Below are positions 1,415 to 12,422 of a DNA stretch of 24,874 nt, piece by piece. The stretch comes from a virus. Both the position numbers and the translations under genes were made by a program. The DNA lies in the IMG/VR virus record IMGVR_UViG_3300025098_000264, positions 1-24,874 of that record; one strand, given 5' to 3'. The notes beneath the pieces were generated by a model. The model did no database searches. It was given only the letters and a program-made list of their open reading frames with translations, and was not told where the DNA came from. Position 1 is the stretch's first letter. Every line of letters begins with the position of its first letter.

Positions 1415-1642
1415 ATGTTTTACTGTATCGCAACCAAGCCTCTTAATGATCGCACCAATGGGTTCCGCTTCAACATGCTAGGACTCAAAGGTTTAACACG
1501 TAAGCGCAAGCATGCAAGCCGTGGCTACAAGCTAGACTTTGGTAACTGCATGACTGCCATTCACTTAGGTAAGCGTACCATCTACATTGAGCGCAAGCCT
1601 AACCGTAACAGTGAGCGCCGTGTGCGTCACTTTGCAGGGTAA
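1415..1642 (+). CDS. Small basic hypothetical protein
   Basis: A 75-residue protein rich in Lys and Arg, with central KRKHASRGYK and IYIERKPNRNSERRVRHF segments; it could bind nucleic acid, but no domain is recognisable. The frame is open further upstream, but ATG at 1415 is chosen because AGGAG lies at 1401-1405, about 9 bases before it, and because upstream starts would overlap the previous gene deeply. It ends 5 bp before the endonuclease VII gene, so the two are probably co-translated. Confidence 0.65.
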   Translation: MFYCIATKPLNDRTNGFRFNMLGLKGLTRKRKHASRGYKLDFGNCMTAIHLGKRTIYIERKPNRNSERRVRHFAG

Positions 1643-1647
1643 CTAAC

Positions 1648-1974
1648 ATGCCAAGCACACCAGAAAACAAACGTCTGCAGAGACTACACAAAGAGTACGG
1701 CATAGATCAGACTTGGATAGATGCAGCACTCAAGCTTCAAGATAACTGTTGCGCTGGGTGTAAGCGTTCATTCGATACGCTACCTCGCTATGTAGTAGAT
1801 CACAAGCACGATACAAGTGTTAAGATTGTTAGGTGTTTGCTTTGTGATGAATGCAATGGTGCGCTTGGTACACTTGAAAAGTTACGCAAAGATATGGATA
1901 GATTTGAAAGACTGACTTGTATTGCTGACATGTACGTGCACTATGAGACAATCTATCCTAGTCATAACGAATAG
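1648..1974 (+). CDS. Endonuclease VII-like Holliday-junction resolvase
   Basis: A 108-residue protein matching the recombination endonuclease VII (T4 gp49) His-Me finger pattern. Zinc ligands are C35-x2-C38 and C66-x2-C69. The catalytic DHxH element is D51-H52-K-H54, and N70 and G74 follow the second Cys pair, as in the usual CxxCNxxLG box. T4 gp49 is 157 residues; the catalytic region alone is present here, as in many short phage homologues. The family cleaves branched DNA and mismatches and trims replication intermediates before packaging. A second resolvase, a T7-type endonuclease I, is encoded at 11976-12422. The gene is the last before the structured non-coding gap. Confidence 0.88.
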   Translation: MPSTPENKRLQRLHKEYGIDQTWIDAALKLQDNCCAGCKRSFDTLPRYVVDHKHDTSVKIVRCLLCDECNGALGTLEKLRKDMDRFERLTCIADMYVHYETIYPSHNE

Positions 1975-1992
1975 AGGACTGGTCATCCTCTA
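1972..1992. repeat. Inverted repeat 1, 7-bp stem at the endonuclease VII stop codon
   Basis: TAGAGGA (1972-1978) and TCCTCTA (1986-1992) are perfectly complementary with a 7-base loop. The left arm includes the stop codon of the endonuclease VII gene. No T run follows, so it is not a classical terminator. Confidence 0.5.
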
Positions 1993-1997
1993 GAGAG

Positions 1998-2031
1998 CAG
2001 CACTAGTATTTATTTGGTTTGACTAGTGCTG
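1998..2031. repeat. Inverted repeat 2, 10-bp perfect stem
   Basis: CAGCACTAGT (1998-2007) pairs perfectly with ACTAGTGCTG (2022-2031) around a 14-base AT-rich loop. It is followed by GATCCCCCC rather than T residues, so it does not look like an intrinsic terminator. It could be an operator, a recombinase arm site or an RNA hairpin. The hexamer ACTAGT recurs at 2091-2096. Confidence 0.6.
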
Positions 2032-2034
2032 ATC

Positions 2035-2087
2035 CCCCCAGCGAGAGCTAATACTACATACTAATCTTGCTGGGGGTACCAACCCCC
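2035..2087. repeat. Two mutually exclusive hairpins sharing one G run
   Basis: CCCCCAGC (2035-2042) pairs with GCTGGGGG (2069-2076) around a 26-base loop. The same G run can instead pair forward: GGGGGT (2072-2077) with ACCCCC (2082-2087) around a 4-base loop. Both helices are perfect and GC-rich and cannot form together, an arrangement typical of RNA switches and attenuators. The block ends 38 bases before the ATG at 2126. Confidence 0.55.
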
Positions 2088-2093
2088 TATACT
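2067..2093 (+). promoter_or_regulatory. Weak candidate promoter in the non-coding gap
   Basis: TATACT (2088-2093) is a 5/6 match to a sigma70 -10 box. TTGCTG (2067-2072) is only a 3/6 match to the -35 box, with a short 15-base spacer. The elements overlap the GC-rich hairpin, so the region could equally be a switch or operator. It would serve the run of small genes starting at 2126. Confidence 0.25.
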
Positions 2094-2125
2094 AGTAACG
2101 ATAAGCATAAGGAGCTAACACTAAG

Positions 2126-2461
2126 ATGAAACTTACAATCAACGCTAAAGCTTTCCCTGACGTAGACCCTGAGCTACTACAAGAAATGCTTGGAGTACTA
2201 CCATACTGGGTACGTGAGTACAACATACTAGGCACAAACATGGACATCGTAGACTTCATGACTGAACGCTATGGCTTTGGTAGCTTGTACCAATTCAAAG
2301 GTGACGTACAAGAAGATGGTACGTATAGCTATCCAGAAGATCCTGACATGCCTTACGTAGGTAAGATGAACACACCCAACGGTAACGTGTACTTCTATCA
2401 GTACGCTATGCTTGCACTGCCTCTGCCTGATGGTGAGTACTTCGTAACACGGATGGACTAA
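2126..2461 (+). CDS. Hypothetical protein
   Basis: A 111-residue acidic protein that I do not recognise. It has an N-terminal strand-helix segment and many aromatic residues in the C-terminal half (VYFYQYAML). AAGGAG at 2109-2114 lies 11 bases before the ATG. It is the first gene after the structured 151-bp gap, and opens a run of very small genes that leads to the integrase. Confidence 0.65.
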   Translation: MKLTINAKAFPDVDPELLQEMLGVLPYWVREYNILGTNMDIVDFMTERYGFGSLYQFKGDVQEDGTYSYPEDPDMPYVGKMNTPNGNVYFYQYAMLALPLPDGEYFVTRMD

Positions 2462-2465
2462 GCTA

Positions 2466-2624
2466 ATGAAACATGTATATCGTGTAGAGTTCTACGACAA
2501 GAACACTAAAGAGTTGGTGTGTTATTATAGCACCAGTAATTTAAATCAAGCTAGGCAGATGGAGAATGCCCCTTTACAAAATGCACAAGTTAAGGTTTAT
2601 CATACTGATGGACACAGAGTTTAA
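2466..2624 (+). CDS. Very small hypothetical protein (52 aa)
   Basis: ATG at 2466 to TAA at 2624, starting 4 bp after the previous stop. The 52-residue product begins MKHVYRVEFYDKNTKE, a likely beta hairpin, and ends with VKVYHTDGHRV. No family is recognised. It is accepted because it fills the space exactly between two genes, on the same strand and in the same compact style as its neighbours. Confidence 0.5.
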   Translation: MKHVYRVEFYDKNTKELVCYYSTSNLNQARQMENAPLQNAQVKVYHTDGHRV

Positions 2625-2641
2625 CACAGGAAGGAAGTACA

Positions 2642-2953
2642 ATGATTATTGAAGACCAAACAGTAGAAGTAAAAGTGTGGGATCATAACGATGCGGTGAT
2701 CTTTGTATATGAAAACATACACGAGAAGACAGATGAAGTACATGAGTCAGGCGTTCCTGTTTGGCGCAGCTATAAGCAAGTAGTCACAGCTATACCAGTA
2801 AACTTTACTTATTCTGATAGTTTATCTGATGATGATAAGCTAGAGAAGGTACGCAAGGTAGCTGATGCATTGACTGAATTGTACGCCTACGAAGATGGTT
2901 ACGAGATGGGCGTGTCTTACTACATCAACCATGACCAATTTGTTAACTGCTAG
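2642..2953 (+). CDS. Hypothetical protein
   Basis: A 103-residue acidic protein with alternating hydrophobic residues in the first half and a helix around residues 60-80 (DDDKLEKVRKVADAL). No known domain is recognised. A purine-rich AGGAAGG at about 2629-2635 precedes the ATG. It belongs to the small-gene run between the structured gap and the integrase. Confidence 0.6.
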   Translation: MIIEDQTVEVKVWDHNDAVIFVYENIHEKTDEVHESGVPVWRSYKQVVTAIPVNFTYSDSLSDDDKLEKVRKVADALTELYAYEDGYEMGVSYYINHDQFVNC

Positions 2954-2967
2954 TAAGGAGTACAAGC

Positions 2968-3120
2968 ATGGACAAAGTAGTATGCGTACACTACGTAATA
3001 GAAAGACTTAAAGATATTGTAGCGTCTGACTTCCCACAGAACGGGGCTAGTGAATTACTACGTGAGATGTACCACAACTTAGGTGTTGATGCACACAACG
3101 ATTACATAGAGCGAGACTAA
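2968..3120 (+). CDS. Very small hypothetical protein (50 aa)
   Basis: ATG at 2968 follows TAAGGAG at about 2953-2959, a good ribosome-binding site. The 50-residue product is mostly helical (VIERLKDIVAS and ASELLREMYHNLGV) with an acidic C-terminus. The stop is 1 bp before the next ATG. The function is unknown; coding is supported by the Shine-Dalgarno sequence and the fit between neighbours. Confidence 0.55.
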   Translation: MDKVVCVHYVIERLKDIVASDFPQNGASELLREMYHNLGVDAHNDYIERD

Positions 3121-11998: not shown

Positions 11999-12422
11999 GC
12001 ATAACTCTAGAAGGTATCGCAGTGGCTTAGAGAAAGAGGTTGCTGCGTACCTTACCGCTGAACAAAAGCAAGTCAGGTATGAAGTACTAAAGATAGAATG
12101 GGAAGACCTACGCTATCGTACTTACACACCTGACTTTGTTTTAGATAACGGTATAATCATTGAGACTAAAGGGATCTTTGATAGTGATGACAGACGTAAG
12201 CACTTGGAGGTACGAAAGCAGCACCCTGAGTTAGACATACGGTTTGTCTTTAGTAACGCTAAGGCTAAGTTATATAAGGGAGCCAAGTCTCGTTACTTTG
12301 ATTGGTGTGACAAGAATGATTTCATGTGGGCACACAGGGTTATACCTGAGGCATGGTTGAAAGAGAAGGGCAAGCCGATTAAAGTAGATCGCATTGCACT
12401 TAAGCACAAGAGGAAAACTTAA
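11976..12422 (+). CDS. T7-type endonuclease I (Holliday-junction resolvase)
   Basis: A 148-residue protein from ATG 11976, close to T7 gp3 (149 residues). Active-site residues are E19 in SGLEKEV, D53 in YTPDF, and E63-T-K65 in IIIETKG, matching T7 E20, D55, E65 and K67. The enzyme is a PD-(D/E)XK dimer that resolves branched replication and recombination intermediates and degrades host DNA. A GTG/TTG start at 11961 is possible but would only add five residues; the ATG gives the family N-terminus. It overlaps the small gene upstream and abuts the next ATG directly. Confidence 0.9.
   Translation: MPPPKKRRHNSRRYRSGLEKEVAAYLTAEQKQVRYEVLKIEWEDLRYRTYTPDFVLDNGIIIETKGIFDSDDRRKHLEVRKQHPELDIRFVFSNAKAKLYKGAKSRYFDWCDKNDFMWAHRVIPEAWLKEKGKPIKVDRIALKHKRKT

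Follow-up and report, generated by a model that had tools for sequence, protein, structure and literature searches.

The window, a stretch of 24,874 nucleotides (positions 1 to 24,874 of IMG/VR record IMGVR_UViG_3300025098_000264), is part of the genome of a marine phage, a podovirus of the HMO-2011 type. Its genes include integrase, primase, thymidylate synthase, DnaB-like helicase, DNA polymerase, exonuclease, endonuclease, MazG, ribonucleotide reductase and PhoH. The first five of these place it among the HMO-2011-type phages, and the gene order matches that of CRP-603 and HMO-2011. Phages of this type are dominant and widespread in the ocean, according to the portion of PMC9038755 drawn on here.

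A non-coding gap of 151 nt (1975-2125) separates an endonuclease VII-like gene from a gene for a 111-aa protein (Table 1). Towards its right end lies a motif of 20-21 bp, here called M, which the initial annotation missed.

Table 1. Features in and around the gap, with positions in the window.
Feature	Position	Strand	Remarks
Endonuclease VII-like (HNH) gene, 108 aa, ends at gap	1648..1974	+	PHROG endonuclease VII families, best E 2.4e-16
7-bp inverted repeat, arms 1972-1978 / 1986-1992	1972..1992	.	Starts inside stop codon of upstream gene
135-nt block, present or absent as a unit	1979..2113	.	Comparison with two relatives
10-bp inverted repeat, arms 1998-2007 / 2022-2031	1998..2031	.	ACTAGT within each arm
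G+C-rich inverted repeat, arms 2035-2042 / 2069-2076	2035..2076	.	8 bp perfect; 12 pairs with G-U (2035-2046/2065-2076)
Competing 6-bp inverted repeat, arms 2072-2077 / 2082-2087	2072..2087	.	
Motif M, CTTATCGTTACTAGTATAGGG on minus strand	2085..2105	-	Common to phages and host elements
Ribosome-binding site AAGGAGCTAACAC of next gene	2109..2121	+	Same site precedes this gene in relatives
111-aa gene, function not assigned	2126..2461	+	No PHROG or NCBIfam match; relatives in 28 loci
Tyrosine integrase, 318 aa	3584..4540	+	PF00589, E 3.6e-23

The inverted repeats of 7, 10, 8 and 6 bp reported in the initial annotation are all present where it placed them, including the two through which the G run could pair backward (8 bp) or forward (6 bp). 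The hexamer ACTAGT does occur three times (2002, 2022 and 2091), but two of the copies are the arms of one repeat. Only their local clustering is notable, with ACTAGT being less frequent than expected in the whole window (6 vs 16.5). The claim that no T tract follows the hairpins holds for the plus strand, where no G+C-rich stem followed by a T tract, the mark of an intrinsic terminator, was found. It does not hold for the minus strand, which has one terminator-like site (1992-1972), at chance level: this is the 1 site found in 1500-3000, against 1.0 expected.

Folding of the gap gave a z of -2.60 for the plus strand, with 10 of 1000 dinucleotide shuffles as low, and a z of -5.12 for the minus strand, with 0 of 1000. 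After correction of the MFE for G+C, the minus strand of the gap ranks 1 and the plus strand 31 among 992 stretches of the window. The second strongest folding stretch (12001-12151, plus strand, MFE -56.5) lies within the endonuclease gene. When M and the ribosome-binding site were left out (1966-2087), the two strands became nearly equal, with z of -4.74 and -5.13 and 0 of 500 shuffles as low on each. Pairing between M and the next gene's ribosome-binding site thus accounts for the minus-strand excess, and the near equality of the strands points to palindromes, not strand-specific RNA. Minus-strand folding is also weaker in the sole relative that shares the gap (z -3.61, 1 of 1000 shuffles).

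A non-coding RNA on the minus strand, which gave a strong early signal, was rejected because its excess over the plus strand is gone without M and the ribosome-binding site, and because no structure lies beside M elsewhere (mean z -0.48 over 35 dereplicated phage contexts, where structure is not general). The RNA switch first proposed for the gap was abandoned as well. In Rfam, the window has no match at gathering level and nothing meaningful at a lax threshold. Besides folding alike on both strands, the hairpins were found only in their own lineage (pattern searches, 50 records, and phage and plasmid collections).

Two relatives share the upstream gene at 99% identity; in both, TAGAGGA runs directly into GCTAACAC and 1979-2113 is missing. 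These 135 nt therefore come or go as a block. Among relatives of the 111-aa gene, 27 of 28 loci lack the gap and have other sequence upstream, one of them with 76 nt of upstream sequence only. The same gap was found only in IMGVR_UViG_3300025084_000518, at 97.4% identity (patterns, and 50 records). Its differences spare M and fall in the loops of the plus-strand hairpins, leaving the stems intact, in a comparison of two sequences, this one and the window.

Stems that are perfect on both strands (z -4.7 to -5.1 once the right end is removed) and unchanged in this relative would suit a hairpin array that is functional in itself, carrying RNase III, termination or mRNA-stability signals between cassettes, with M as a bystander. 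We regard this as possible but doubtful. The coding strand has no T tract, the terminator score is at chance level, the conservation of the stems is that of two sequences, and the array leaves M unexplained. The array is a lineage-specific feature, separate from M.

An exact match of 20 bases between the gap and three relatives (L015-L017) prompted a scan of IMG/VR for M. Its 19-base core is present in 79 stretches, with unrelated flanks and in both orientations. In 1.08 Mb of loci, many of which were fetched by this 19-mer itself, the 21-mer is found exactly in 43 distinct contexts, with 1 mismatch in 5, with 2 in 1 and with 3-4 in 0. The reversed motif has 0 matches there up to 4 mismatches. 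Out of 30 records, 25 contain M (20-mer) without mismatch, 23 of them once and 2 twice, and the reversed control pattern is found in 0 of the 30. The five records without M are HMO-2011, CRP-603, G024, G030 and G008. One phage type has two copies in opposite orientation, 4.1 kb apart (L120 3412 and 7550, also G052 16920 and 21058). Two 14-base pieces of M were also sought in the text of open-licence papers, with no hit.

The contexts of M fall into classes. In class I, it follows the stop of a cell-wall hydrolase gene and precedes DUF932, integrase and primase. Class II has M in a run of small genes, approximately 1.6-2.1 kb before the integrase, and resembles the window (1.5 kb). In class III it lies in a non-coding region between divergent genes, and in class IV the neighbours on its two sides are a 948-aa LPD23 protein and a protein of 300 aa. 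In L015-L017, M falls in frame within the small ORF that follows the 111-aa gene, at a place where relatives can be aligned but do not have M. Here it looks as if it had arisen by substitutions within coding sequence, and its presence may be due to chance in that lineage.

Variants T4C, T16C and A17G of M are common to phages and hosts. A scan with three positions left free gave 117 stretches; among the 80 listed, 23 were new, with 19 of the TACAGGG form, 3 of TATGGGG and 1 of TACGGGG. The TACAGGG and TATGGGG forms recur in host copies, and a third variant, TTACCG, was found in phage L278 and in several host copies. The cultured roseophage CRP-1 has one M, of the TACAGGG form. CRP-345 has no M at the corresponding slot, nor did a scan of 52.9 kb of it find one with as many as 4 mismatches allowed. 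Elsewhere, too, M is missing from the slot in phages nearly identical to ones that have it. In L189 (222-330), M in the TACAGGG form adjoins a stretch resembling a T arm and tRNA 3' end, in which ARAGORN reports no tRNA gene. A regular expression for a tRNA core near M, which misses variant T arms such as the one in L189, matched 3 of 102 phage loci, all with one non-tRNA sequence.

In a genome scan, M was found in eight host contigs, seven of them titled Rhodobacterales, Rhodobacteraceae or Planktomarina. Genomes with M have up to four sites each (at most 3 mismatches). It is rare in hosts: with at most 1 mismatch allowed, a sample from one family had it in 3 of 394 genomes, and one genus in 5 of 16. 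The initial annotation had suggested looking in host genomes for the gap sequence as an att core, and the broader idea of a DNA-level site that hosts also have is borne out. What is shared is the 20-bp motif at the right end of the gap, and the host copies lie within mobile elements and not in a conserved gene, which does not make a bare att core. Most of the host copies examined are non-coding, with related flanks among which M is the unchanged block; in G123 M and its flanks form a box of about 380 bp.

Tyrosine integrases with DUF6538, or fragments of them, lie near some host copies, and those of G123 and G077 are in tRNA-Leu elements beside such integrases. The 15 bases that end tRNA-Leu are repeated directly at the two boundaries of the G123 element, at a distance of 9.55 kb, and between them are two M boxes in inverted orientation. 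The element thus has the integration at a tRNA gene, the tyrosine recombinase and the direct repeats expected of a satellite. M lies 170-190 nt inside the element. The arrangement in G077 is that expected from inverting the segment between the two M boxes of G123. A third copy of M in G123 starts 4 nt past the point where its flank diverges from that of G495, which is otherwise 99% identical. No AlpA, primase, terminase or TerS was recognised among the element proteins scanned. A DoxX-like protein is the only host-element protein with relatives in viral loci, so no packaged element was seen.

Some other features accompany the host copies. The DoxX-like gene lies near M in L169 (3879-4307) and has relatives (58-60%) in 13 phage loci. 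A dispersed repeat of approximately 100 bp, one copy of which adjoins M, is present in some 30 copies in G123 (L230, L231) and in many in its genus relatives. Perfect inverted repeats of 81 bp flank the DUF6538 integrase gene in L231 (6745-6825/7985-8065) and L161 (2812-2892/4052-4132), and include both the 3' end of tRNA-Leu and the start of the integrase.

The gap had also been proposed as the attP region of the integrase 1.5 kb downstream. As stated, this finds no support: the gap sequence is missing from the examined records of relatives with 90%-identical integrases, and in class I identical integrases go with M or with another sequence; the rejection applies to class I, and the window's own integrase enters only through the gap sequence of its relatives. 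We took 80 of 233 DUF932 loci (L237-L316), 76 of them with upstream sequence (all but L257, L260, L262 and L282). M lies within 150 nt upstream of DUF932 in 21 of the 76, plus a 1-mismatch form in L278, a count that scores L291-L294 as lacking M, although L291 and L292 have it further upstream. An alternative sequence, N (CTAACRCC..TTAGTRGGG), occupies the same slot in 27 of the 80. N is often a hairpin, and a similar hairpin lies two genes upstream in L031.

Mapped on a tree of integrases with 79 rows, the label M requires 14 changes, at least 10 of them forced by supported branches; here N was labelled by a single regular expression, and M beyond the 1300 nt searched (at least in L268, L301 and L302) was counted as "other". 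Identical integrases are found with M (L254) or N (L259) in the slot, and a second pair is L261/L258, the slots of both pairs, on which the conclusion rests, having been read by eye. We therefore rejected M as a core read by the phage's own integrase in class I.

M could still be the crossover core of an attachment site, either because the phage integrates at a host M or because a host-element recombinase exchanges strands there. We consider this rather unlikely. It would account for PF00589 being present in 17 of 17 M records of at least 24 kb (it is absent from four short M fragments), for M being usually single, and for the match between phage and host variants. The inversion between G123 and G077 and the abrupt start of the third G123 copy are also what a crossover would leave. 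However, the integrase is also present in 5 of 6 records without M, and the label changes on the tree and the pairs with identical integrases count against a crossover core. The direct repeats of the host element are tRNA-Leu 3' ends, with M 170-190 nt inside them, and no phage-host junction was seen at M. Homologous recombination between the 379-bp M boxes could give the same inversion.

Another reading makes M a cis site of the phage for replication or packaging, imitated by host elements for carriage by the phage. The sharing with tRNA-Leu elements of approximately 9.5 kb and the mostly single copy per phage fit a helper-satellite site, and identical motifs are named as a sign of such pairs in the part of PMC11389934 considered here. 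This reading is nonetheless quite improbable: close relatives do without M, and none of the scanned element proteins was recognised as a primase or terminase. A packaging site read by TerS was rejected because M does not follow the TerS allele. The TerS of M records is 55% to 100% identical to that of CRP-1 (18 of 25 records have a TerS match), and G514, checked for M in the slot only and lacking it there, shares 98% identity in TerS with two M phages.

Very improbable, in our view, is a promoter or operator, such as a T7-type polymerase start (TATAGGG) for a structured minus-strand RNA in this phage: M does lie 18-80 nt before a gene and in its direction in class I and some host elements, and the minus strand of the gap folds strongly, but classes II and IV, like the window, have M in the opposite orientation, structure is not general beside it, the strands fold alike without the right end, and PF00940, which divergent enzymes would escape, is absent in 16 of 17 records, the sole positive being without M. 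The gap may also be an operator array or a replication origin.

The best explanation, which as a whole we hold with less than even confidence, is that the gap is the junction of two gene cassettes in an HMO-2011-type phage. M itself would tentatively be a DNA site, free of position and orientation, for a candidate host-side factor, probably of these integrative elements. M is shared by phages and host elements, comes in the same variants in both, is free in place and orientation, and is gained and lost without change of integrase or TerS. It would act at the level of double-stranded DNA, wherever it lies and whichever way it points. The most likely candidate reader would be a host-side DNA-binding protein or recombinase of Rhodobacterales elements that have M near their own end, with phages gaining, keeping or losing M as a whole, in the variants of host elements. 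The factor is probably on the host side because M is constant while the integrases (41-48% identical among M phages) and TerS vary, because M comes and goes in near-identical phages, and because its variants match those of hosts.

What is done at M may be recombination or docking, regulation, replication or packaging, all of which are possible. As to the effect on the phage, our guess would be recombination or docking, induction or replication of the element, or repression. The exact conservation of M could come in part from recent spread. A more specific version, which we think possible but less likely, is that M serves as a handshake site, at which tRNA-Leu elements of the marine Roseobacter group meet temperate phages of the HMO-2011 type. 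A factor of the element would act on the M of an incoming phage, and phages would gain, drop or swap M to enter or leave the interaction. The likelihoods given to the host-factor reading and to a functional hairpin array are not mutually exclusive.

The sharing of M points to an undescribed contact site between phage and host. Which elements travel with which phages is a standing question. Shared DNA motifs are one way to find phage-element pairs, as set out in the part of PMC11389934 used here, and M is a motif of that kind. It has natural variants and natural counterparts without it, and it is present in the cultured CRP-1. If the host-factor reading is true, sequence data would allow a direct test of which phages and elements pair in uncultured marine bacteria.

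T7-type phage promoters have some 20 conserved bases ending in TATAGGG. M is alike in its length of approximately 20 conserved bases and in its TATAGGG end, but is found in both orientations and in phages of which 16 of 17 records have no T7-type polymerase. The part of PMC9038755 covered by a term search has no mention of a promoter or RNA polymerase.

The attP/attB cores of phages with tyrosine integrases resemble M in its size of approximately 20 bp, its mostly single copy in genomes with an integrase, and its variants matching host copies. CRP-3, for example, has its attachment site at tRNA-Met (PMC6918029). In contrast to such cores, the same integrase occurs with M or another sequence, and host M is in mobile elements instead of a conserved gene, with no tRNA gene.

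Among marine satellites and integrative elements, the PICMI described in the consulted part of PMC10803314, which also names VEIMEs and tycheposons as marine elements, are similar to the G123 element, with its approximately 9.5 kb, its tRNA gene and its tyrosine recombinase. They differ in that no AlpA, primase or TerS was recognised in the G123 proteins scanned, and mobilisation of the element by a phage would be conjecture, by analogy. Finally, the cos/pac packaging sites of helper phages and satellites, as treated in the part of PMC11389934 seen, differ from M, which is dispensable in close relatives, is not tied to TerS and belongs to elements known here from sequence alone, but they are like it in being a short motif identical in phages and in integrative elements resident in the host.
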